Below are positions 141 to 18,933 of a stretch of DNA of 64,000 nucleotides, in pieces. Position 1 is the stretch's first letter. Each line of letters starts with the position of its first letter. A program made the translations under genes and the position numbers. Source of the DNA: Brachyspira hampsonii 30446 (lineage in GTDB: Bacteria > Spirochaetota > Brachyspiria > Brachyspirales > Brachyspiraceae). A model generated the notes under the pieces. The model saw nothing but the letters and a program-made list of their open reading frames with translations. It searched no databases and had not been told where the DNA came from. The stretch spans positions 392,728 through 456,727 of the forward strand of contig NZ_JH994110.1 in NCBI RefSeq assembly GCF_000316195.1, given 5' to 3'.

Positions 141-201
141 AAAAAGTATCATAATAAATTATCAGATGGCAGTATATTTTTTTGTAATAATATCAAATAA
201 A

Positions 202-2046
202 TTATTTATTTAATTTGAAAAACTGCATAGCATCTTCCAAGTCTCTAGCTTCATTTAACAAAGAAGCAGCCGCTGAAGCAGATTGTTCTACCAATCCGGC
301 ATTCTGCTGTGTTACGCTATCCATTTGAGAAACTGCTATATTTACCTGATCAACTCCTGACTGCTGTTCTATAGCCGTTTCACTAATATCTCTCATTATA
401 TTAGAAGTTTCTTCTATTTTTTTCTCCAAATCTTCAAATATTTTTTCTGATTCTTTTGCTTTCTCCACAGACTTACTAATCTTATCATATATAACATTAA
501 TCAAAGCAGTAATATCCTTAGCCGAAGACTGAGAATTCTGTGCTAAATTTCTAACTTCACTTGCTACAACAGCAAATCCCTTACCTTGCTCTCCGGCACG
601 GGCAGCTTCTACAGCAGCATTAAGTGCCAATATATTAGTTTGAAAAGCGATATCCTCTATGACCTTAGTTATATTTTTTATTTTTTCACTGTCCTCATTA
701 ACCTCTTCTATGCTTTTAGTTGTTTCTAAAATTATAGCTCCTGCATTTCTAATTGAATTCATAGATTCCTTCATCATATTATTGCCTTCTATAGAATGCG
801 AAGTAGAAGATTTAATTGTAGAAGCCATCTCCTCCATAGAAGAAGCAGTTTCTTCAAGACTTGCAGCTTGAGCTTCTGTTCTCCTTGATAGATCAGAATT
901 ACCATTTGCTAATTCCTGAGCCGCTGTAGTGATTTTGATAGAAGAATCATTAACTTGAGATATTATCTCTGTCAGTTTTTTACGCATTCCGCTGAAAGAT
1001 TCAAATAATATTCCAAGCTCATCTTTTCTTTTATGTTCATTTGAAACATAAGTCAAATTTCCTGCCTCTATCTCCTTAGCCTCTCTTATAATGCTGTATA
1101 TATGTCCCATTATTCTCTTTATGAAAAGATAAACAAATATAGATAATAATACAACAGCAATTAAACCTACTAACGAACTTATTAAAATCAATTCCCTATT
1201 TGTAGAATATATCTCACTATCGAACATAGTCATAGCTATTATCCAATTCATAGATTTCATTTTGCAATAAGAACCTGTTCTTTTTTGATCCATATAGATA
1301 TAGGATAAAGTACCCTGAGTTAAATTATTATCAAAAACTGTTTTGTAATCCTGAACGACACTAGAGCCTATTTGATCATATAGATTATCCATTATGTCAG
1401 TTAAATTAGAATCTATAGCAAGTATTCTGCCTGTTTGTCCTAAAGTTATATCAGCAAAGTAATTGTCATGTATAAGTTTCCAATCTATTACTACGAGTAT
1501 TACTCCTAATAAATTGCCGTCCAAACTTTTTATAGCACCGCCTAAAATCAATGATTTATTTCCAGTATCTGCTGAATCTATTATTTCCTCATCAAATGTA
1601 TATTCAAAATTATTTCTTTCTAGTATAGACCAGAAATTAGGTCTAGTATCAGAAATACTATTACCTATGGAGCTTCCTAAAGCATCAGCTATAATATCCC
1701 CATTTAAATCTGCTACTGCTATATTTATAGAATATTCATTAGCACCATTAAATAGTGCCAAAGCATTTAAAGCATCAGTTTCTGTCTGTTCATTTCTATT
1801 TAAAAGTGAATTCATAACAGCAGGTGCAACAGAATATGTTTTAGCTAATGAAATCTGATCTACCAATATGGCATCAAATAATTTAGCATAAGACTGTGCT
1901 GTGTTGGCAAAGCCTTCAAATCTGCTTTTGCTTATACCTTTATTAGCAAAAGTTACTGCTACACTTAATACAATAAATATTATTAATATAGATGTAACCG
2001 ATATTATAGCAGGAACCTTGAAAGATAAACTATGTATCTTTTTCAT
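202..2046 (-). CDS. Methyl-accepting chemotaxis protein, Cache type
   Basis: This is a membrane chemoreceptor that signals to CheA/CheW. An N-terminal membrane helix is followed by a periplasmic Cache-like sensor of about 240 residues, a second membrane helix, a HAMP linker and a methyl-accepting domain. The conserved signalling tip is visible ([20 protein letters not shown], then [15 protein letters not shown]). I chose the Met at 2046 over the one at 2064 because a GGAG ribosome-binding site lies 8 bases before it. The gene stands alone, facing away from the restriction island. The ligand cannot be told from the sequence. A related receptor gene at 22.8 kb is broken by a stop codon. Confidence 0.93.
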
Positions 2047-2267
2047 AGACAAACTCCAATTCATATAAAAATAGAAAATGCTTTATATTTAATCGTTATT
2101 TTTTAGTAATTTTATACTTTTTTTTCATATAAAATATTTTATTTTAAAAAAAATATATAAAAATCGTATTTTTTTTACACTTTTTTTAAAAGTTTTATAT
2201 ATTATTAATATAACAAAGTTGATTTGTATCTAATTTTATAAATTTTTTCTTCATAATTTACCTTAAT

Positions 2268-2291
2268 AGCGGATATAGTTTTATATCCGCT
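2268..2291. terminator. Perfect hairpin in the gap between the chemoreceptor and the restriction island
   Basis: AGCGGATATA at 2268-2277 pairs perfectly with TATATCCGCT at 2282-2291 around a GTTT loop. A weak T-rich stretch follows on the plus strand. It could be a terminator remnant or a structural element. Apart from this hairpin and the promoter at 2481, the gap 2047-2533 holds only AT-rich sequence. Confidence 0.45.
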
Positions 2292-2480
2292 TATTTATAT
2301 ATCAAAATAAAATATTACAATTAAACAATAATCTGTATTATCAAATAAATTTTATATAAAAATAACAGTATGTTTCTTGATAGGTAAAAAATATATATCA
2401 TTATATGAATAAAAAATACGGCACCTATATATTTTTAACAGCATATTTTTGATTAGAGCGTAATTTTTTAATAAAAAATA

Positions 2481-2525
2481 TTGACAATACCTAATTTATG
2501 TGCTAATATAAAAACATAAGGAGGA
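2481..2525 (+). promoter_or_regulatory. Promoter and ribosome-binding site of the restriction island
   Basis: TTGACA at 2481-2486 and TAATAT at 2504-2509 are 17 bases apart. AAGGAGGA follows at 2518-2525, 8 bases before the ATG at 2534. This is a near-consensus sigma-70 promoter with a short leader, and it probably drives the half-size HsdS gene and hsdM. Confidence 0.75.
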
Positions 2526-2533
2526 AATAAATT

Positions 2534-3130
2534 ATGAAAAAAATCATATTAAAAGAGCTTGCAAATATAAGAGTAGGGGCATCTGTTTCAAGGGCTTCAG
2601 CAAAGATATACGAAAAAGGGTATGAAGTCAATCTCATAAACTTAAAAGCATTCGATAATAAATCTATTAAGTATACTCAAAATGAAAAAAATATTGATAC
2701 AATACAAATCAAACAAAAAAATATCGAATTAATACAAGCAAATGATATTATCATAAGGCTTAGAGAACCATTCAATAGCCTAATAGTAGAAGATAATATT
2801 GATAATTGTATAATAAGTTCATTAATGGCATGTATCAGAATAAAAGAAGAATTTTATAATATATGCCTGCCTCATTTTCTTGCTATTTATCTAAATAATA
2901 AAAAAGTTCAGAAATTTTTAAAAAGAGAATCAAGAGGAACAGGGATAATATCAATAGGAACTTTTGATATAGCAAATATAGAAATAGAATTGCCTAGTAT
3001 AGATAAACAAAAAGAAATCATTGAAATAAATTCATTATTTGAAAGGGATATTTTTATTTATGGAAAACTTTTTGAATTAAAACAAGTATTTTATAAAGAA
3101 GCTATGAATAAAATATTAAAAAACTGTTAA
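2534..3130 (+). CDS. HsdS-like protein, half size (single target-recognition domain)
   Basis: The 198-residue protein looks like one half of a type I specificity subunit. An N-terminal recognition-domain-like region is followed by a sequence ending in LPSIDKQKEIIEI, which matches the usual LPxxxEQxxI border of an HsdS recognition domain and its helical spacer. Full HsdS proteins have two such halves, and the downstream copy at 6609 has both. The gene has its own strong promoter and RBS and lies 39 bases upstream of hsdM. It could act as a homodimeric half-subunit, as known for truncated HsdS in other systems, or be a silent donor of specificity. Function is inferred from weak family resemblance. 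Confidence 0.7.
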   Translation: MKKIILKELANIRVGASVSRASAKIYEKGYEVNLINLKAFDNKSIKYTQNEKNIDTIQIKQKNIELIQANDIIIRLREPFNSLIVEDNIDNCIISSLMACIRIKEEFYNICLPHFLAIYLNNKKVQKFLKRESRGTGIISIGTFDIANIEIELPSIDKQKEIIEINSLFERDIFIYGKLFELKQVFYKEAMNKILKNC

Positions 3131-3169
3131 TCATTTACTAAAATATATTTTTTAAAAGGAGAAATCAAG

Positions 3170-4666
3170 ATGAAAACAACAAAAGAAGTAGTTGAAAATA
3201 TAGTTTGGAAAGCATGCGATACTTTCAGAGGATCAATAGACTCATCTGTTTATAAAGATTATATATTGAGTATGCTGTTTGTGAAATATTTATCAGATTT
3301 CGTGAAAGAAAAAACTGAAGAATTAAGAAAAGAATATAAAGACAATGAAGGTATTTTATCAAGAATGATTGAAAGGCTGGATTATAAAATAAGCGAAACT
3401 GCTAACTTTGATTATTTATATTCTATAAGAGAGGAAAACAATATTGGAGAGAGGATCAATACTGCTTTAAGAGAAATAGAAAAACAGAATCAGAGTAAAT
3501 TTGAAGGCATTTTTAATAATATAGATTTTAATGATTCAAATAAATTCGGCAATACAAAAACAAGAAATTCTATATTAAAAAATCTGCTTGAAGACTTCAA
3601 TGATCCTGCATTAGATTTAAGTCCCAGTGCATTAGAAAACAATGATGTTATGGGTGATGCTTATGAGTATTTGATAAAAAACTTTGCAAGCTATGCCGGT
3701 AAAAAAGGAGGCGAATTCTTCACTCCTCCTGAAGTATCTATGCTTATAGCTAAAATAGTAACTTTGAATATAAAAGACGGAGTTAAAGTATATGACCCTA
3801 CTTGCGGAAGCGGTTCTTTGCTTGTTAAAGTGTATAAAGAATTAGGAGGCAAAAAATGTTCTGTATACGGACAGGAGAAAAACAACCAAACATATTCTTT
3901 ATGCCGAATGAACATGTATTTGCATGAAATAGGCGATAAAGGAATGATTGAATGGGGCGACACTATAAAAGAGCCTAAATTCTTGGATAAAAACGGCAAT
4001 TTAGAAAAATTTGACATAGTAGTTGCTAATCCTCCTTTCAGCTTGGATAAATGGGGAGATGAAACTGCAGTTAAAGACCAATACAATAGATTTGAGTACG
4101 GCATACCTCCAAAGAGCAAGGGAGACTATGCTTTTGTACTTCATATGATAAACAGTATGTCTGAAAATGGAATCACTGCTGTTGTAATGCCTCATGGGGT
4201 ATTATTCAGAGGAGCTAGCGAGGGAATAATACGAGAAAGAATAATAAATGAAAATTTGCTTGATGCTGTTATAGGGCTTCCAAACAATTTATTTTACGGC
4301 ACTTCAATACCAGCATGCATTTTAATATTAAAAAAGAACAGAAAAGAGAAAGACATTTTATTTATAGATGCAAGCGTAGAATATGAGAAAGGAAAAAATC
4401 AAAACCGCTTACGCGATGAGGATATAGAAAAAATAGTAAAAGCCTACAAAGACAGAAAAAACATAGAAAAATACTCTAAATCAGCAAGCCTAGAAGAAAT
4501 CAAAGAAAATGAATACAATCTCAATATACCTAGATATATAGACTCATTTGAAGATGAGGAGCATGTGGACTTGAAGAGCATAAACAAAGAAATAACAGCA
4601 TTAGAAAAAGAACGCGAAACTCTAAGCGGCAAATTAGAAGATTTTTTGAAAGATATAAAATTATAA
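3170..4666 (+). CDS. hsdM: Type I restriction-modification DNA methylase subunit (N6-adenine)
   Basis: HsdM uses S-adenosylmethionine to methylate adenine in the recognition sequence chosen by HsdS. The 498-residue protein has the HsdM helical N-terminus (about 1-140), then GGEFFTPPEVSMLIAKIV at 180-197, the SAM-binding motif DPTCGSG at 209-215, and the catalytic motif NPPF at 287-290. A coiled C-terminal end follows. The RBS AAAGGAG is well placed. Its length and motifs are those of an intact enzyme. The island order is half-S, M, accessory genes, S, R. Confidence 0.97.
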   Translation: MKTTKEVVENIVWKACDTFRGSIDSSVYKDYILSMLFVKYLSDFVKEKTEELRKEYKDNEGILSRMIERLDYKISETANFDYLYSIREENNIGERINTALREIEKQNQSKFEGIFNNIDFNDSNKFGNTKTRNSILKNLLEDFNDPALDLSPSALENNDVMGDAYEYLIKNFASYAGKKGGEFFTPPEVSMLIAKIVTLNIKDGVKVYDPTCGSGSLLVKVYKELGGKKCSVYGQEKNNQTYSLCRMNMYLHEIGDKGMIEWGDTIKEPKFLDKNGNLEKFDIVVANPPFSLDKWGDETAVKDQYNRFEYGIPPKSKGDYAFVLHMINSMSENGITAVVMPHGVLFRGASEGIIRERIINENLLDAVIGLPNNLFYGTSIPACILILKKNRKEKDILFIDASVEYEKGKNQNRLRDEDIEKIVKAYKDRKNIEKYSKSASLEEIKENEYNLNIPRYIDSFEDEEHVDLKSINKEITALEKERETLSGKLEDFLKDIKL

Positions 4667-4671
4667 TATAA

Positions 4672-4699
4672 TTGAAAAACTTAGCAAATTAGTTATAAT
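4672..4699 (+). promoter_or_regulatory. Separate promoter for the PIN-GNAT-PUA gene
   Basis: TTGAAA at 4672-4677 and TATAAT at 4694-4699 are 16 bases apart and start immediately after the hsdM stop codon. The transcript would have a leader of only about 14 bases. This suggests that the accessory gene is expressed independently of hsdM. Confidence 0.65.
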
Positions 4700-4719: not shown

Positions 4720-6246
4720 ATGAAAGCACTTTTAGATACAAATATTATTATTCATAGAGAAAGTAATAATAAAATAATCAATAGAGAAATAGGTAGTCTA
4801 TTTAAATGGCTAGAAAAGACTAAATATGAAAAATGTATACATAAAATTAATCTTGAAGAATTAAATAAAAACTCAAATTCTGATACTGTAGATGTTATGA
4901 ATGTAAAATCTAAAAATTATACTTTATTAATGACTCAAGCTCCATTAAATAAAAAACTACTTGAAATATATGAAAAATTTGACAAAACAGAAAATGATAA
5001 AAATGATACTTTATTATTAAATGAACTTGTAAATGACAGAGTTGATATATTTATTACAGAAGATAAAAAAATACATCAAAAAGCTAAATTAGTAAATATA
5101 GATAATAAAGTATTTACCATAGACTCTTTTCTAGAAAAAGTTATTGCAGAAAATCCTGAACTCATTGATTATAAAGTTTTATCAGTAGAAAAAGAATATT
5201 TTGGTAATATAGATTTAAAAGATAAATTCTTTGATTCTTTAAAAGAAGATTATGTTGGGTTTGATAAATGGTTTAATAAAAAATCTAATGAAATAGCTTA
5301 TGTTACTTACAAAGATAAAAAATTATTATCTTTTTTATATTTAAAAGTTGAAGACAAAGATGAAAACTATGCTGATATAATTCCAGCATTTTCTCCTAAA
5401 AAAAGATTAAAAATAGGTACTTTTAAAGTAGAATATAACGGAGTCAAATTAGGTGAGAGATTTATAAAAATAATATTTGATAATGCTATAGCTAATAAAG
5501 TTGATGAAATATATGTTACAATTTTTGATAAAAGAGAAGAACAAAATAGACTAATTAATTTATTTGAAGAATATGGTTTTATTAAATGGGGAAAAAAAGG
5601 AGAGAATGGAGAATTAGTATATATTAGAGATTTTTCAAAAAGGTTTAATATAGAAGAACCAAAACATACTTATCCATTTTTTTCAATAAATACAAATATC
5701 TTTTTAGTACCAATATATCCAGATTATCATACAGATTTATTACCTGATTCTTATTTAAAAACAGAATCTGCAAAAGATTTTAAAGATAATTTACCACATA
5801 GAAATGCAATAAGTAAAGTTTATGTATCTCGTTCATTAAACAAAAATATAAAAAAGGGAGATATTATAATATTTTATAGAACCAAAGAAGAAGGTAAGCC
5901 AGCAAAATATTCATCTGTAATAACTACTATAGGAATAGTTGAAGAAAAAATTGATAAGATAAAAAATGAAAAAGAATTTATAATAAATTCTAGGAAAAGA
6001 AGTATTTTTACAGATAAAGAATTATCTAATTTTTGGAACGGGAAAGGTGCTAAACCATTTTTAATTAATTTTTTATATGTATATTCATTTAAAATTGGGA
6101 ATAGAATGAATAGAGGTAGATTACTACAACTAGGAATTATAAGTGATGCTGATAATGGAATTAGAGGTCTAACAAAAATAACAAAAGAACAATTCTTATT
6201 AATATTAAGAGAGTGTAAAGTAAATGAAAGTTTTATTGTCTATTAA
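4720..6246 (+). CDS. PIN-GNAT-PUA-like fusion protein embedded in the restriction island
   Basis: The 508-residue protein seems to combine three domains. Residues 1-140 resemble a PIN ribonuclease, with candidate acidic residues D6 (LLDTNIII), E46/E47, D96 (NDTLLL) and D115 (FITED). Residues 190-305 resemble a GNAT acetyltransferase (KIGTFKVEYNGVKLGERF, then a FEEYGFIKW end). Residues 325-500 contain a PUA/EVE-like segment (IKKGDIIIFYRTKEE, then RGLTKITKEQF). The ATG at 4720 is preferred because a GTGGAG RBS (4708-4713) precedes it and an in-frame GTG at 4708 is part of that RBS. Its 3' end overlaps the ASCH gene by 23 bases, so the two look co-translated. A role in RNA cleavage or base recognition is inference from the domain folds. 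Confidence 0.75.
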   Translation: MKALLDTNIIIHRESNNKIINREIGSLFKWLEKTKYEKCIHKINLEELNKNSNSDTVDVMNVKSKNYTLLMTQAPLNKKLLEIYEKFDKTENDKNDTLLLNELVNDRVDIFITEDKKIHQKAKLVNIDNKVFTIDSFLEKVIAENPELIDYKVLSVEKEYFGNIDLKDKFFDSLKEDYVGFDKWFNKKSNEIAYVTYKDKKLLSFLYLKVEDKDENYADIIPAFSPKKRLKIGTFKVEYNGVKLGERFIKIIFDNAIANKVDEIYVTIFDKREEQNRLINLFEEYGFIKWGKKGENGELVYIRDFSKRFNIEEPKHTYPFFSINTNIFLVPIYPDYHTDLLPDSYLKTESAKDFKDNLPHRNAISKVYVSRSLNKNIKKGDIIIFYRTKEEGKPAKYSSVITTIGIVEEKIDKIKNEKEFIINSRKRSIFTDKELSNFWNGKGAKPFLINFLYVYSFKIGNRMNRGRLLQLGIISDADNGIRGLTKITKEQFLLILRECKVNESFIVY

Positions 6247-6593
6247 ACCTGAATATGTTGAAAAAATATTCAATGGTAGTAAAAAATATGAAATTAGAAA
6301 ATCTATTTTTAAAAGAAAAAATATAAAAAAAATTATAATATATTCTTCATCTCCTATTTCTAAGGTAGTAGGTGAATTTGAAATAGAAGATATAATATCT
6401 GATGATTTAGATAATGTATGGAACATAATAAAATATGAGTCCGGTATTTCTGTAGATTTTTTTTATAAATATCTTGAAAATAAAGAAATAGCATATGCTA
6501 TAAAAAATAGGTAAAATAAAAAAATATCGTAAACCTAAAAAATTGGAAGATTTTAATATCTATTATGCACCGCAATCATTTGTATATTTATAA
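6224..6593 (+). pseudogene. ASCH-domain protein, frameshifted in an A6 run
   Basis: The first frame begins MKVLLSIKPEYVEKIFNGSK and contains YEIRKSIFK, typical of small ASCH (PUA-like) RNA- or nucleotide-binding proteins, but stops at 6514. The missing family C-terminus is present at once in another frame: GKIKKYRKPKKLEDF followed by YYAPQSFVYL and a stop at 6591-6593. Removing one A from the run at 6502-6507 joins the two into about 122 residues. The change is either a recent frameshift, a phase-variable tract or a sequencing error. The gene overlaps the PIN-GNAT-PUA gene, and the hsdS RBS lies just after its stop. Confidence 0.75.
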
Positions 6594-6608
6594 AAAGGAG
6601 CCCCAACA

Positions 6609-7757
6609 ATGAACCAACCGCTCCCAGCAGGATGGCAGGAAGTAAAATTGCAGGAATGTCTATTAGAACAACCAAAATATGGAATGAATGCCCCTGCTGT
6701 AAAATATGATAATTCATTACCTACATATATAAGGATAACTGATATAGATGAGTATGGAAATTTTATAAATGATAATAAAGTATCTGTTAACAATGCTAAT
6801 TATGAAGAGTATATTTTACATGATAATGACTTTCTGTTTGCAAGAACAGGAGCTTCGGTAGGAAAAACATATTTATATAATAGAAAAGACGGCATTTTAG
6901 TTTTTGCGGGTTATTTAATAAAAGTAAAACCGAATCAAAATATATTAAATAGCCTATTTTTAAAATATTATACTCAAAGTAAGAGATATTGGCATTTTGT
7001 AAAAATAACATCTGCAAGAACAGGACAGCCTGGAATAAATGGAAAAGAATATGCTAATATGAATATAGTACTGCCGCCCATAGATGAACAGAAGCGTATA
7101 TCTGAAATTTTGTCATTATGCGATGATGTTATAGAGAATCTTACGCAATTAATAGAGAAGAAAGAGCTTTATAAGAAAGGCGTAATGCAGAGAGTGTTAA
7201 GCGGTGAAGTTCGTTTCAATGGTTTTGGAGATGAGTGGAAAATAAAAAAATTATCTGAAATTAGCAGAAGTATAAAAACAGGAAAATTAGATGCTAATGC
7301 TATGGAAGAAAACGGGCAATATAGGTTTTATACTTGTGCTAGAGAATATTATAGAATAAATGAGTATGCCTTTGATGGGGAGGCTTTATTAATATCCGGC
7401 AATGGTGCTTATGTTGGATATGTTCATTATTATAAAGGTAAGTTTAATGCTTATCAAAGAACTTATGTTTTAATGGATTTTGAAGAAGATATAAAATATA
7501 TAAAATATTATCTTGACATATATTTAAAGGATAGAATAAGAAAAGAAAAAAATGAGGGAAATACACCATATATAGTTCTAAGCACATTAACAGATATGGA
7601 AATAAAAGTACCAAGCCTAGAGGAGCAGAAAAAAATTGCGGGGCTTATTTCGGTTATAGACGAAGAGATTGACAATCTTAAAAAGCAGTTGGAGCTTCGT
7701 AAACAGCAGAAGAAAGGACTTATGCAGAGGCTTTTAAGCGGTGAGGTGAGGATTTAA
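6609..7757 (+). CDS. hsdS: Type I restriction-modification specificity subunit
   Basis: HsdS reads the bipartite DNA target for both methylation and cleavage. The 382-residue protein has two recognition domains, about 1-155 and 205-330. Each is followed by a helical spacer with the conserved ends LPPIDEQKRISEI and VPSLEEQKKIAGL. The direct internal repeat YKKGVMQRVLSGEVRF and QKKGLMQRLLSGEVRI marks the two half-subunits. The ATG at 6609 follows an AAAGGAG. The gene is separated from hsdM by the accessory pair and from hsdR by a 400-base gap with GC-rich repeats. Confidence 0.95.
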   Translation: MNQPLPAGWQEVKLQECLLEQPKYGMNAPAVKYDNSLPTYIRITDIDEYGNFINDNKVSVNNANYEEYILHDNDFLFARTGASVGKTYLYNRKDGILVFAGYLIKVKPNQNILNSLFLKYYTQSKRYWHFVKITSARTGQPGINGKEYANMNIVLPPIDEQKRISEILSLCDDVIENLTQLIEKKELYKKGVMQRVLSGEVRFNGFGDEWKIKKLSEISRSIKTGKLDANAMEENGQYRFYTCAREYYRINEYAFDGEALLISGNGAYVGYVHYYKGKFNAYQRTYVLMDFEEDIKYIKYYLDIYLKDRIRKEKNEGNTPYIVLSTLTDMEIKVPSLEEQKKIAGLISVIDEEIDNLKKQLELRKQQKKGLMQRLLSGEVRI

Positions 7758-7770
7758 AGTTTTGAATATA

Positions 7771-8143
7771 ATTGTATAATAAAATGTACGATGCCGCACA
7801 TACATTGTACTATCTTAAAAGTTAAGCGATACCGTGCGGATCGCCGCTACGGCAAGTAGTTTTTGTAAAAAAGAAGACAAAAAACAATTTTATTATTGTT
7901 ATGTTAGCCGAAACCTATAAATGTATTCCAGCTAAAGCTGTAATACGGTTTCGACTCACTATTATATTATTTAGGGATTACTTTTTATTTCTGTGATTGC
8001 ATTATAATATTTTTTAGCTTTTTATTATTATAATTCATTGTATAATGAAAGGTACGATGCCGTATTTACATAGGGCATTTGATAAGAATAAGCAATACCG
8101 TGCAGCTTGCCCGTCGCGAAGCATACCTGCGGTAATGGCGAAT
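7771..8143 (+). repeat. Two direct copies of a GC-rich repeat between hsdS and hsdR
   Basis: Copy 1 starts at 7771 and copy 2 at 8037. Both begin ATTGTATAAT, continue with GTACGATGCCG, and about 40 bases later carry an AAGC(G/A)ATACCGTGC block and a GC-rich end (GCCGCTACGG, or CCGTCGCGAAGC). The end near 7853 has been replaced in copy 2. TACCGTGC is also part of the modular intergenic family. The 7758-8156 gap contains these copies and the palindrome at 7909 but no gene. Confidence 0.7.
7909..7953. repeat. Nested palindrome in the hsdS-hsdR gap
   Basis: CGAAACC (7909-7915) pairs with GGTTTCG (7947-7953), GTATT (7923-7927) with AATAC (7942-7946), and CAGCT (7929-7933) with AGCTG (7936-7940). 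The 7-base left-hand bulge TATAAAT is unpaired. It may act as a terminator-like or REP-like structure. There is no T tract directly after it. Confidence 0.6.
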
Positions 8144-8156
8144 ACAGGAGTTTTTT

Positions 8157-11100
8157 ATGAATGAACAATACAGCGAAAGAATATTACAAAATAAAGTTAT
8201 AGAACTTTTTAAAAATATGGGCTACCAATATTTAAGCCCGGAAGAAGCTCTTAAAGAAAGAGATAATGATACTAATAATGTGCTATTTAAAAATATTCTC
8301 GAAGAACAGCTTAAAAAAATTAATTACTTTATGTATGATGATAAGAAAAACAGCTTTTCAATAGATAATATCAAAAAGGCAATAAGTGATTTGGATATGC
8401 CGCTTATAAAAGGATATTTAATCACAAATGAAGAGATTACAGAAAGAATTTTAAAAGGCGAATCATACAAAGAAAAAATCGGAAATAAATATGAAAGTTT
8501 TAATATCAAATATATAGATTTTGATAATATAGAAAATAATACATTTCATATCACTGAAGAATTTACAGTAACTAGAAACAGTACAGAAGAAAAAGAAAAA
8601 ACAAGAAGACCAGATTTAGTAATATTTATAAACGGCATACCTATAGCAGTAATAGAATTAAAAAAAGGAAGCGTAAACTCAAAGAATGCTATAGAGCAGA
8701 TGGTGAGAAATCAGGAAGAAAAAGAAATAAGACAATTATTTAAATTCAGCCAATTACTAATATGTGCTAATGATGATATGGTTAAATACGGCACAGCAGG
8801 AACTCCGGTAAAATTATATAATGTTTGGAAAGATAAAGAAAATAATGATAATAAAAAAGATAAAACAGGCAGAAAAGAAGAAAGCAAAGTAATGAAAGCA
8901 TTAAAAAAAATAGTGAAAGACAGAGTAATAAATGAAATAGACATAACATTATATTCATTATTTGAAAAAGAGAGATTATTTGATATATTAGAATATTTCA
9001 TCATATTTGACGGAACGGTAAAAAAAGTTACAAGATACAATCAATACTTCGCTATCAAAAAAACTATGGATAGAATACAAAATATAAGTCAAGGGAAAAG
9101 ACAAGGCGGAGTAATATGGCATACTCAGGGAAGCGGTAAAAGTCTTACAATGTCTATGCTTACAAAAATAATATCAAGAAAAATAAAAAACTCTAAAATA
9201 GTGGTGGTAACCGACAGAGTAGATTTAGACGAGCAAATTCACGGCACTTTCAAAAATACGGATATAGAGGTTGAAAGAGCAACAACAGGTGCGAATTTAA
9301 TCAAATTAATAGAAAGCGGTAAAAGCGTCATAACAACAGTAATCAATAAATTTGAAAAAGTATTCGACAAAAAAGTGGTAATGGATTCTGCAGATATTTT
9401 TATACTAGTAGATGAAAGCCATAGAACGCAGTACGGGGATTTTGCTATGAAGATGAGAAAAGTCTTTCCTAATGCATGTTATTTAGGCTTTACAGGAACA
9501 CCTTTATACAAATCCGAAAAAAGTACAGCAGAGAAATTCGGAGGCTTTATAGATTCATACACTATAAGAGATGCTTTAGAAGATAAAGTAATAGTACCTC
9601 TATACTATGAAAGCAGATTGATAAATCAGAAAATATACGATAAAAAAGGCTTAGATTACAGATTCGATTTAATTACAAAAGATTTAACAGATAAAGAAAA
9701 AGAAGATTTACAAAAGAAAAATCTAAGCGAAAATGTGATACTTGAAAGCGAACAGCGATTAATAGTATTAGCCGATGATATAGCAAAACATTATAAAACT
9801 AATTTAGCAAATACAGAGTTTAATGCCATGCTTGCAGTAGAAAGCAAATATGAGGCTATGAAGATGAAGGAAATATTCGATACTTATCATAGTCTTGAAA
9901 CAGCAGTGGTCATATCTTCGCAAAATGATGAAGGGGCAGACAGTGATGAATACAAAAAAAATAACGGCTCAGAAAAAAAACAGTATGTAGCAGAAAAATG
10001 GAAAGCTCTATACAGCAAATATTCAAATGATGAAAATAAATACACAGAAGAAATAATAAAAAGTTTTAAAAAAGGCACTATAGATATAATAATAGTAGTA
10101 GATAAACTTCTTACAGGTTTTGATGCCCCAAAGGCTCAGGTTTTATATATAGATAAAAAATTAAAAGATCATGGACTTCTTCAGGCTATAGCAAGAGTAA
10201 ACAGAGCATATTCAGGAAAAGATAATGGAATATTAATAGACTATAGAGGACTTCTTTCCAACTTGGATAATGCTTTAAATGCTTATGATAAATTAGCCAA
10301 TTATGATCCTAAAGATATTGAAGATGTTGTATTCGATATAAAGGAAAAAATTGAAGAGTTTAAAAATTCCTATGAAGATTTAGTACAGTTCTTGCCTGAA
10401 CTTACTTTAGAAAAGGCTTATGAGATATGTCCTCCTCTTTTAAGCGATGAAGATAAAAGAAAAAAATTTTATGGGTTATTTTTAAACTATTCAAAACTTT
10501 TAAATATATGTCAGTTCAGCGATCATTTTATAGAAAGTTTTGAATATAAAGAAATTGAAAAATATAAAAAATTATTTAAAACTTGTATTGAGATTAGAAA
10601 TCGTTTAAGAATTACCCATCATGAAGCTGTAGATTTTAAAGAATATGAATCTAAAATGCAGAAATTATATGATGAGTTTGTAGGTACTGATAATAATGTG
10701 AAAGTATTAAATGAAATACCCAGCATATTTGATGCCGACTTTGAAAAAGAAATAGATTATTTAAATGAATCAAAAGCAGATGCCATAATAAATGCAGCAA
10801 ACAGTGTTATAAAAGAAAAAATGGATGAAAACCCTGAAATGTATAGGAAACTTTCAGAGAAAATATTTGATATAATAGAAAAATACAAGAATAACAGGAT
10901 AAATGAGCAGGAAAAACTTTTAGAGGTAATGGAAGTAGCATCTACAATAAGAGGCGAAAATGAAAAAGAAAATCTTAAATATGATGAGCGTATAAGAGAT
11001 AATAAATGTGCAAGATCCATATACGATAACTCTAAAAAATATATAGATAATGATAATACATTAATAGACTTTTCTTTATTTGTTGATAAATTATTTAAAT

Positions 11101-11297
11101 CTAGCAGCGGTATGCCTAATTGGCAGAATATACAATCTATAAGAAATAATATAGAAGGTGATATAGATATAAAATTATATGAACTTGGTAAAGAAAGCAA
11201 GGATAAAAAAATATTAAGTATAAGCAATGAAGAGATGAAAGAATTTTTAAAAATGCTGGTGAAGATAGGTTTAAATATATATGCAAACTACAAGTGA
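8157..11297 (+). CDS. hsdR: Type I restriction enzyme motor/nuclease subunit
   Basis: HsdR translocates DNA with ATP and cuts it when the target is unmethylated. The 1046-residue protein has a PD-(D/E)xK nuclease near the N-terminus (D153 in RRPDLVIF, E167 and K169 in VIELKKG). The SF2 helicase follows, with Walker A TQGSGKS around 323-329 and the DEAH-box variant DESH at 419-422. TGTPL and a later LLTGFDAPKAQVLY segment are typical of the type I motor. It appears intact. The start at 8157 has an AGGAG 5 to 9 bases upstream. Its 3' end overlaps the next gene by 17 bases. Confidence 0.97.
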   Translation: MNEQYSERILQNKVIELFKNMGYQYLSPEEALKERDNDTNNVLFKNILEEQLKKINYFMYDDKKNSFSIDNIKKAISDLDMPLIKGYLITNEEITERILKGESYKEKIGNKYESFNIKYIDFDNIENNTFHITEEFTVTRNSTEEKEKTRRPDLVIFINGIPIAVIELKKGSVNSKNAIEQMVRNQEEKEIRQLFKFSQLLICANDDMVKYGTAGTPVKLYNVWKDKENNDNKKDKTGRKEESKVMKALKKIVKDRVINEIDITLYSLFEKERLFDILEYFIIFDGTVKKVTRYNQYFAIKKTMDRIQNISQGKRQGGVIWHTQGSGKSLTMSMLTKIISRKIKNSKIVVVTDRVDLDEQIHGTFKNTDIEVERATTGANLIKLIESGKSVITTVINKFEKVFDKKVVMDSADIFILVDESHRTQYGDFAMKMRKVFPNACYLGFTGTPLYKSEKSTAEKFGGFIDSYTIRDALEDKVIVPLYYESRLINQKIYDKKGLDYRFDLITKDLTDKEKEDLQKKNLSENVILESEQRLIVLADDIAKHYKTNLANTEFNAMLAVESKYEAMKMKEIFDTYHSLETAVVISSQNDEGADSDEYKKNNGSEKKQYVAEKWKALYSKYSNDENKYTEEIIKSFKKGTIDIIIVVDKLLTGFDAPKAQVLYIDKKLKDHGLLQAIARVNRAYSGKDNGILIDYRGLLSNLDNALNAYDKLANYDPKDIEDVVFDIKEKIEEFKNSYEDLVQFLPELTLEKAYEICPPLLSDEDKRKKFYGLFLNYSKLLNICQFSDHFIESFEYKEIEKYKKLFKTCIEIRNRLRITHHEAVDFKEYESKMQKLYDEFVGTDNNVKVLNEIPSIFDADFEKEIDYLNESKADAIINAANSVIKEKMDENPEMYRKLSEKIFDIIEKYKNNRINEQEKLLEVMEVASTIRGENEKENLKYDERIRDNKCARSIYDNSKKYIDNDNTLIDFSLFVDKLFKSSSGMPNWQNIQSIRNNIEGDIDIKLYELGKESKDKKILSISNEEMKEFLKMLVKIGLNIYANYK

Positions 11298-12077: not shown

Positions 12078-13625
12078 ATGGATTATAATGAAAAGTTATA
12101 TAATGTATTTTCTAGCGGAGAGCAGAGATTAGAATCATGGATGGCGGCTGTATTTACTAAAGAATATGATCATAATATGACAGTTGAAGAGTTCAGAGAT
12201 ATATTATCAGAATCTGATGAATATATGGTATTAGAGTTCAATAAAATAGAAAAATCCAATTTTATAAGAGATAAATCCAAGTGGGAAGTATCGGTTAAGC
12301 TGCAGTATTTGCCTATGGTTATAGATGAGATGGATGAAATGGAAGAAGATGGCTGCGGATGCGGGCATAATCATGATGAAGAAGGACACTCCTGCGGATG
12401 CGGACATGACGATGAAGAACACTCCTGCGGATGCGGACATAATCATGACGATGAAGAACATTCCTGCGGATGCGGACATAATCATGATGATGAAGAACAT
12501 TCCTGCGGATGCGGACACAATCATGAAGAAGAAGAAAATAATGATGAGCTTAGTTTTTATGCGGCATTAGTAGATGCTTCAAGCGTTACTGAAAATGTAC
12601 CTGAAATATTTTCTGTAAATACAGTAAGAGAAGATGATTATAATGAAGCATGTCAATGTAAATATGCAGTACATATATCAACAACATTTGATAATCATCC
12701 GCTTACCGACTATCAAAGACAATTAAAATTATTAGACAGTTTAGTTCCGGAATGTTCTATATTTTTAGATATGTCATGCTACACAGCACATTCAGGAGAT
12801 TGGCTTTCTTATACATCAACTTTTGCATTACCTCCTTCTTTAGATTATCTATATACCATACATGCAGTTTATGATGATGATAAAGACCCTAATAAAGTAG
12901 AATATTGGTTTCATACGCATGGACTTTACAGAGTAGGTTCTATAGAATTGGAAATAGTAGGAGTTGAAGATTCAAATGCCTCTTATGGTGCATTGCTTAA
13001 TACTTGTGCAAAAATGTTTATAGAAAGGGGAGTTCCAGAAGCTGGATTTAAATTTAATCCTGCATATAACACTTATGTATGCTGGTTTCCTTGGCAGGAG
13101 GCTTTGAAGAAATTAAATATTACTGATGATATTACAGGAAGTGCTAAAGACAGAAATGACGGAGTGCATAATACGCCTTCAGGTATTTTGCTTGCTGTAG
13201 ATGCTGAAGGCAATTATCATTCTCTTGATTATTATAAAAATGAGCTTACAGATAATCCTATGTTTATGATGAGTTATTTTGAAACTTCGCTAATGAGAGA
13301 GGCTGCTTTTGAAAAATTAGAGTATTTCCTAGAATTATTGAATAAGAATAAAGGTGATGATAAAACTTCTTTCTTAGTGAAATTAGGATACGGAGAAACA
13401 GAAGAAAACCCTAATGACTTAGAGCATTTATGGTTTGATGTGCATGACTTCACCAATGAAGGATATTTCGATGCTACTTTAATAAATGAACCTTATAAAG
13501 ATTTGGGTATGCATGAAGGCGATAGAGGAATGCATAGCATAGAGAGACTTACCGATTGGGAAATATATACAGAAGAAAATAACTACAATTCAAGAAATAT
13601 ATATCTATTATTTCAAGAAGAATAA
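12078..13625 (+). CDS. DUF4026-like protein with an internal Cys/His metal-binding repeat
   Basis: The 515-residue cytoplasmic protein resembles the DUF4026 family; I do not know its function. Two conserved-looking parts (about 1-90 and 155-515) are separated by five Cys/His-rich repeats at residues 92-149. Each unit is close to SCGCGHNHDDEEH and the second unit lacks NH. Such Cys-Gly-Cys-Gly-His-x-His runs are expected to bind transition metals such as Zn, Ni or Cu. No signal peptide is present. An AGAGG RBS precedes the ATG. The gene is monocistronic with a hairpin terminator at 13633. Confidence 0.75.
   Translation: MDYNEKLYNVFSSGEQRLESWMAAVFTKEYDHNMTVEEFRDILSESDEYMVLEFNKIEKSNFIRDKSKWEVSVKLQYLPMVIDEMDEMEEDGCGCGHNHDEEGHSCGCGHDDEEHSCGCGHNHDDEEHSCGCGHNHDDEEHSCGCGHNHEEEENNDELSFYAALVDASSVTENVPEIFSVNTVREDDYNEACQCKYAVHISTTFDNHPLTDYQRQLKLLDSLVPECSIFLDMSCYTAHSGDWLSYTSTFALPPSLDYLYTIHAVYDDDKDPNKVEYWFHTHGLYRVGSIELEIVGVEDSNASYGALLNTCAKMFIERGVPEAGFKFNPAYNTYVCWFPWQEALKKLNITDDITGSAKDRNDGVHNTPSGILLAVDAEGNYHSLDYYKNELTDNPMFMMSYFETSLMREAAFEKLEYFLELLNKNKGDDKTSFLVKLGYGETEENPNDLEHLWFDVHDFTNEGYFDATLINEPYKDLGMHEGDRGMHSIERLTDWEIYTEENNYNSRNIYLLFQEE
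12351..12524 (+). repeat. In-frame 39-bp tandem repeat coding the Cys/His tract
   Basis: Five units of 33-39 bases run head to tail inside the DUF4026-like gene. The unit reads roughly TCCTGCGGATGCGGACATAA followed by TCATGATGATGAAGAACA. The central units are almost identical at the DNA level, so unit number could change by slippage or recombination without breaking the frame. Confidence 0.9.
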
Positions 13626-17666: not shown

Positions 17667-18933
17667 ATGTATTTAATAAAATTTTCATTTATTTTATTCA
17701 TTTCAAATATATTAAATACCTATACAGCATTACAGATATAATATTTATTTCTCATTTGCTTGGCAGTAATTGAGTTATAGCATTAGGAAATTGTGCTTCT
17801 ATAATGTTTATAATAACTTCTATATCTTTAGGCTTATCAATAGGCGGATCTGTTATAATATCAAAATATAAAGGTGCTGATGATAATACAAGATATAAGC
17901 AGGCAATAGGAAGTTTATTATTTTTATCTTCAGCAGCAGCTTTAATAATTTCAATAATAGGATTAATATTTTCAAATAAGATATTATTATTTATGAATAT
18001 TCCAAAAGAATCATTTAAGTATGCTGATGATTATATAAAAATAATTTTTTCAGGGATATTTTTTATATTTCTATATTCTTATCTATCAGCTGTAATAAAA
18101 TCAAGCGGAAAAGAAAAAGTATCATTATATTTTATGATAATTGCTGCATTACTAAATTTTATACTAAATTTTTTATTTTGTTATATTTTGAAATTATCTG
18201 TAAAAGGTGCAGCATTAGCTACTGTAACATCTCAGGCTGTTTCATTTTTACTGTCTTTATATTATATAAGAAAATTATTAACTTTTAATTTTGATATAAA
18301 AATAATAAAGGAGCTAATATTTATTTCTTTGCCTTGCATATTTCAAATTCTTATAATAAATATATCATATTTTTTTGTTAATATAATGATGAATAAATAT
18401 GACACTATTACAGGATTTACAATAGGATTAAAAATAAATACTTTTATAGGTATGATTTCTTGGTCTATAGGAGAGGCTTTAAGTATAATTGTTTCAAATA
18501 GTATAGGAAAAAAAGATTACATAAAAATAAAAAGCATGGTTAATTTTGCCGTATTATTTAATATATCTGCTACAGTAATAGCAATAATATTTATACATCT
18601 ATTTCTTAAAAATATAATAGCTATATTCTACAGCGGAGATGATAAAGTTATTAATGATATTATTTTCTATATAAAAATAATGGTATTACTTATGCTTTAA
18701 TGTATGTATTAGATAGTTTTTTAATAGGCATTCAAAAATCATATTTGGCTTTTATTAATTCATTTATAGATTCTATAATATTTAAAATAATAATATCAAA
18801 AATATTAGAAATATACATAGGATATTTAGGAATATATATTGCGATGGCATTGTCAAGTATAGTTCCCGCTTTTATAGGGTTAATATACTTTTATATATTT
18901 GTAAGAAAAATTACTTACAATAAACTTTATTAA
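17667..18933 (+). pseudogene. MATE-family multidrug/sodium exporter, decayed
   Basis: MATE proteins export drugs using Na+ or H+ gradients. The frames still read as one: MYLIKFSFILFISNIL from the ATG at 17667, a frameshift near 17720, then LYSITDIIFISHLLGSN, an in-frame TGA at 17771-17773, and VIALGNCASIMFIITSISLG. A long open stretch (17804-18700) follows, and a second frameshift at the TAATG of 18698-18702 leads to MYVLDSFLIGIQKSYLAF through 18933. Three independent lesions make a functional pump very unlikely. The length is also short at the C-terminus (about 420 codons). Confidence 0.88.

Follow-up and report, generated by a model that had tools for sequence, protein, structure and literature searches.

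The gap between hsdM and hsdS of a type I restriction operon in Brachyspira hampsonii 30446 is an exchangeable slot, which is a new observation. In the window (the whole stretch of 64,000 nucleotides analysed here) this slot carries a gene for a PIN-GNAT-EVE protein followed by an overlapping ASCH gene. In sister genomes the same slot carries HEPN/MNT modules or other genes. On balance, we read the pair as a toxin-antitoxin-type, probably abortive, defence cassette. Bell et al. 2020 (PMC7641849) had already described this architecture and linked it to type I restriction. What is new in this genome is that the ASCH frame is broken near position 6505.

Organisation of the restriction locus

The locus comprises the following features (window coordinates, all on the + strand):

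2534-3130, +, half-length HsdS-like gene (198 aa) 5' of hsdM (Pfam Methylase_S, E 6e-8)
3170-4666, +, hsdM, type I methyltransferase, left wall of the cargo slot (N6_Mtase, E 2e-112; TIGR00497 hsdM)
4672-4699, +, promoter-like TTGAAA-16-TATAAT site, at chance level for the region
4720-6246, +, PIN-GNAT-EVE gene (508 aa), PDC-M11A, predicted toxin (PADLOC PDLC04422, E 1.6e-203; AlphaFold pLDDT 85)
4720-5154, +, PIN domain, residues 1-145 (PIN_3 in relatives; acidic quartet)
5170-5643, +, GNAT acetyltransferase domain, residues 151-308 (Naa60/RimI-type folds, Z 14.5)
5686-6228, +, EVE/PUA-like domain, residues 323-503 (ZmASCH structures, Z 13.3-13.7; Pfam EVE in relatives)
6224-6246, +, 23-base overlap of the PIN-GNAT-EVE and ASCH genes, kept as far as a phage and an archaeal virus
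6224-6514, +, ASCH gene (PDC-M11B), frame-broken, predicted antitoxin or regulator (PDLC04425, E 2.8e-36)
6515-6593, +, out-of-frame remainder of ASCH with the conserved PQSFxYL end (DNA alignment with four relatives)
6609-7757, +, hsdS, right wall of the cargo slot (Methylase_S, E 6e-34)
8157-11297, +, hsdR (HSDR_N, E 3.7e-39; SWI2_SNF2, E 4e-79)

The half-length HsdS-like gene is also present in sister genomes G004, G005, G022, G023, G024 and G017. Next to the restriction locus, a 515-aa protein (12078-13625) with a repeated CGCGHNHDDEEHS metal-binding-like stretch is likewise kept in sister genomes.

The original prediction placed a 508-residue fusion of a nuclease, an acetyltransferase and a PUA-like reader between hsdM and hsdS and credited it with a promoter of its own. 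The reading frame (ATG at 4720, stop at 6246) stands, its start being shared by the relatives, and so does its position. The promoter fared less well. The TTGAAA-16-TATAAT site is present and is kept in G022 and G002, but the region contains 43 sites of this type against 43.0 expected by chance. The motif might still be a promoter of the gene's own, and it was dropped as evidence because the site count is at chance level.

Domains of the PIN-GNAT-EVE protein

The PADLOC model PDC-M11A matches the protein over its full length. Profiles and predicted structure together place PIN, GNAT and EVE-like domains in this one protein, the make-up that defines PDC-M11 and that had been proposed from the sequence. 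Pfam detects PIN_3 in 23 of the 34 relatives (best E 6.5e-6), and the PIN acidic quartet D6, E47, D96 and D115 is conserved to at least 90% at each position among relatives. The choice of D6 and D115 as active-site positions is therefore borne out, and E47 and D96 join them.

Hardly visible to Pfam (1 of 34 relatives), the GNAT domain emerges from the AlphaFold model, in which residues 151-308 adopt a GNAT acetyltransferase fold (Z 14.5 to Naa60, 150 residues aligned, rmsd 2.7); acetyl-CoA binding and transfer are predicted from it. Structure prediction had been suggested as a check on both the PIN and the GNAT fold. It recovers the GNAT fold, while the structure search is dominated by this domain and the PIN call is based on Pfam and the acidic residues. 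Residues 323-503 of the model form a PUA-superfamily domain, for which ZmASCH is the top match among solved structures (Z 13.7). The Pfam EVE profile scores 14.5 bits on the window protein, below its cut-off of 23; at E <= 0.05 it detects 15 of the 34 relatives, the best of them at 1.3e-4. A PDB sequence search with the long protein gave no useful match.

An exchangeable slot between hsdM and hsdS

The complete sister genome G004, which is without the pair, aligns at 92-94% to window positions 151-4673 and 6589-7839. Between these blocks it carries an XRE gene, a gene that joins an ImmA/IrrE-like peptidase to an MNT nucleotidyltransferase, and a HepT-like gene whose product bears the motif RNFLIHQY (domains from a Pfam run on the near-identical G005 copies). 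The same HEPN/MNT module occupies the slot in G005, G018 and G020, and PIN-GNAT-EVE with ASCH occupies it in G022 and G002. Other cargo consists of a DUF4062/PDC-S60-like gene in G024, a DUF2971/PDC-S31-like gene in G017 and a PDC-M36A-like gene in G023, inside which the contig ends. As the PDC models were picked for embedding in defence systems, these slot matches are not independent of that choice.

In this cargo, at 1414647-1416460 in G004 (L071/L072) and L076:4708-6521 in G005, the ImmA-like peptidase gives a weak CapP match (E 5.7e-8). The XRE regulator/ImmA-like peptidase pair of this cargo resembles the CapH/CapP damage-sensing regulators of CBASS.

The restriction genes themselves are less stable than the cargo at some of these loci. 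Both hsdS and hsdR are gone and the cargo is kept in G002, which carries the PIN-GNAT-EVE pair, and in G020, which carries the HEPN/MNT module. A short hsdS is present in G005, whose examined stretch contains no hsdR; in G004 hsdR is split into two ORFs. In two other Brachyspira genomes (G025, and G003 at locus L005) the pair adjoins type IIG restriction genes. Moreover the window cassette is mosaic: the upstream DNA and the beginning of the cassette are close to G022/G002, the later part to G025. The mosaic and the variety of loci therefore indicate a cassette that travels and recombines among restriction loci. Over window positions 4720-6223, DNA identity is 97.1% to the G025 copy beside the type IIG enzyme (L050) and 93.9-94.0% to the same-slot copies of G022 (L051) and G002 (L052).

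These arrangements may be taken further. The gap could be a dedicated exchange site which receives unrelated toxin-antitoxin or abortive modules as fail-safes, the toxin outlasting the restriction genes; this is a tentative reading, which we hold to be quite possible. If true, sister strains would combine one restriction system with differing toxins as a second layer.

The position of the pair between the methylase and specificity genes also suits a modification-and-reading device, in which GNAT would acetylate a DNA base and EVE and ASCH would read modified bases, widening restriction to modified phage DNA. Base acetylation by GNAT was proposed earlier by Iyer et al., as cited in Bell et al., EVE and ASCH domains are known modified-base readers, and Bell et al. 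report ASCH fused to HsdS in Methanohalophilus. However, the PIN domain points towards RNA, the cargo outlives hsdS and hsdR in G002, the slot also accepts unrelated HEPN/MNT and other genes, and a PIN-less form exists in temperate phages with no adjoining restriction genes. Such a device is thus unlikely.

Pairing, overlap and phage carriers

The pairing of the two genes is obligate: ASCH is present at all loci whose contig extends past PIN-GNAT-EVE, and the same 5 of 26 Brachyspira genomes hold both. They are therefore linked in the way expected of toxin-antitoxin systems. The 23-base overlap with an ASCH start at 6224, noticed in the original prediction, is common to 15 loci (window and phage PhiR47_2 counted in) and recurs in the archaeal virus psiM100 according to its annotated coordinates.

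Some loci include an extra gene between PIN-GNAT-EVE and ASCH, or an AAA_17 kinase-like gene upstream. A gene family of about 315-375 aa lies between the two genes at L031:11524-12645 and 8 other loci, and one of the same size range lies upstream of the pair at L006:8937-10001 and 4 others. Two representatives of these families gave no Pfam or PADLOC match. They are possible third components.

Among phage records, the toxin gene occurs in 16, ASCH accompanying it in 16 of 16, and ASCH occurs alone in 12. The latter include records from Oenococcus, Streptococcus, Funu1, Aphanizomenon and psiM2. These solitary ASCH genes could act as antidotes against a host PIN-GNAT-EVE. psiM2 has kept the ASCH gene of psiM100 (95.7% identity) and shows no match to its toxin gene, most of which falls, in psiM100, within an annotated inserted fragment. 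The phage form is found in 274 of 5,426 complete E. coli genomes. Three unusual carriers of the 274 were checked: one has a frameshifted toxin and an intact ASCH, one a frameshifted toxin and no annotated ASCH, and one is intact. The direction of loss in phages and in this small E. coli sample fits a role of ASCH as antitoxin. In the Lactobacillus prophage Lj965 (L088:1786-3881), GNAT-EVE and ASCH are immediately preceded by four tRNA genes, which may hint at tRNA as the target.

The distribution of the two forms, with PIN in hosts near defence genes and PIN-less in phages, would also agree with the counter-counter-defence proposed by Bell et al., in which the host PIN-GNAT-EVE degrades acetylated tRNAs produced by a phage GNAT-EVE. 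However, the PIN protein retains a full GNAT domain and an ASCH partner of its own, and the archaeal virus psiM100 has the PIN form too, which makes this explanation quite unlikely.

The ASCH partner and its broken frame

The original prediction ended at position 6593, but the ASCH gene is not intact. The frame from 6224 runs for 96 codons, to 6514, and matches the relatives over the first 94 of them; 6593 can be reached only across a break within an A run near 6505. Four Brachyspira relatives (L046-L049) have an intact gene of 122 codons whose end corresponds to window position 6593, and the DNA 3' of the break still aligns with theirs up to that point. Compared with these four, the break is confined to the window. 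The part lost takes with it the tail of one strand, the whole of the last one and the PQSFxYL motif, which is almost invariant in the ASCH family. The partner gene expected of PDC-M11 is thus present with its overlap, broken here and intact in the four relatives; no second ASCH copy was found in the genome of the window.

Among 43 genes compared with G004, a single one besides ASCH is split in the window, so general sequencing error was rejected as the cause. That gene, at 17804-18909, is open over 196 codons in G004 and falls into two frames near 18679 in the window. Since neither the 508-codon gene nor the DNA past the ASCH break shows other damage, this break would be either recent or a sequencing error at that site. 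Alternatively, it might mark the onset of cassette loss, the pair being a decaying remnant without function in strain 30446. The confinement of the break to the window and the ongoing loss of restriction genes at sister loci go in this direction, but the good state of the long gene and of the DNA past the break, together with the near absence of other split genes, renders it very unlikely.

The toxin is never found without an intact ASCH in the phages and relatives, but this is precisely the arrangement of the window. An addictive pair would predict the reverse of a broken ASCH beside an intact presumed toxin, and this constitutes the strongest argument against the toxin-antitoxin reading. If ASCH is the antitoxin, there are three ways to account for the break: a sequence error at that base, a shortened ASCH that still functions, or a silent toxin.

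The closest solved structure to the ASCH partner is ZmASCH (E 3e-19). Another ASCH protein, YqfB, hydrolyses N4-acetylcytidine with a catalytic set of Lys21, Thr24 and Glu74, raising the idea of an acetyl-RNA editing pair: GNAT-EVE would make acetylated RNA or aminoacyl-tRNA and a YqfB-like ASCH would remove the acetyl group as an enzymatic antitoxin. The equivalents of the YqfB Lys and Arg (K20 and R25) are invariant in the window family; however, the position of Thr24 is a Glu in 35 of 35 aligned members, so that the set is incomplete and the mechanism unavailable. A YqfB-like deacetylase role for ASCH was rejected on this ground, and the editing pair is the least probable of the alternatives.

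Association with restriction genes

An N6-methylase gene lies within 10 kb of the long gene in 6 of 43 genomes with relatives, against 1.0 under random placement (P 4e-4). Without Brachyspira the count is 3, against 0.83 expected (P 0.05). A locus from Desulfobacterales (L008) has the order hsdM, DUF1016 nuclease, PIN-GNAT-EVE, ASCH, hsdS. In a survey of Spirochaetota, 13 of 392 genomes gave a match. Many Bacteroidota copies are away from restriction loci and some adjoin STAND-type ATPase genes. Co-occurrence with hsd genes, put forward originally as a test, is therefore only partly confirmed: it is enriched, but most sampled relatives are located elsewhere. The association with restriction is real, yet a minority location in the sample.

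Proposed function

We favour the predicted role of the pair as an accessory toxin or second layer of defence, also raised in the original prediction. The strongest argument for such a fail-safe comes from the sister genomes in which a recognised HEPN/MNT module fills the exchangeable slot. The toxin would be PIN-GNAT-EVE. Its C-terminal EVE/PUA-like domain would find a nucleic acid, possibly modified and most likely RNA, the GNAT domain would acetylate it or a molecule attached to it, and the PIN domain would cut RNA. ASCH, its translation presumably coupled via the overlap, would bind either the toxin or its ligand and so hold the toxin silent. When a phage evades or blocks restriction, this balance would be broken and the cell would halt translation. 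Toxicity, RNA target, antitoxin role and trigger are all deduced here from sequence and genomic context.

The family is widespread, in bacteria, archaea and temperate phages. The Brachyspira slot represents a natural experiment in which operon, site and flanks are constant and the cargo varies, so that a backup role of embedded genes in restriction can be tested directly. The broken ASCH beside an intact presumed toxin bears on whether the antitoxin is needed.

Comparison with known systems

Bell et al. describe PIN-GNAT-EVE proteins that have ASCH partners and often lie near type I restriction genes, as well as GNAT-EVE forms from prophages. Toxin-antitoxin roles were proposed there and, according to its authors, none of the modules was characterised experimentally. 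The PDC names of PADLOC, in which PDC-M11A/M11B is a defence candidate, come from a 'guilt-by-embedding' screen and are mostly candidates (PMC12988326). Literature searches found no experimental paper on PDC-M11 or GevA/GevAT. The window pair shares with these operons the domain order, the ASCH partner, the proximity of hsdM/hsdS and a full-length profile match; unlike them, its ASCH frame is broken. The passages of Bell et al. consulted do not describe other toxin and defence genes replacing the cassette at one orthologous slot.

The lambdoid phage PhiR47_2 (PV340567) has a PIN-less pair, named GevT toxin and GevA antitoxin in the depositor's annotation; searches found no paper behind this label. 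GevT is 40% identical to residues 155-508 and is followed by ASCH with the same overlap, but it lacks the PIN domain and lies in a prophage beside cI, with no restriction operon.

ZmASCH (ZMO0922; PDB 5guq, 5gus), the nearest solved relative of the ASCH partner, also shares the fold of the EVE-like domain. It is reported to bind nucleic acids and to act as a single-strand RNase (PMC5615036). The YqfB amidohydrolase has the common ASCH fold and the conserved Lys and Arg of its octapeptide, and differs at its catalytic Thr24.

The HEPN/MNT (HepT/MntA-type) modules of G004, G005, G018 and G020 occupy the identical hsdM-hsdS slot. Their proteins are unrelated to PIN-GNAT-EVE and ASCH, and consist of a nucleotidyltransferase antitoxin and a HepT-like RNase toxin.
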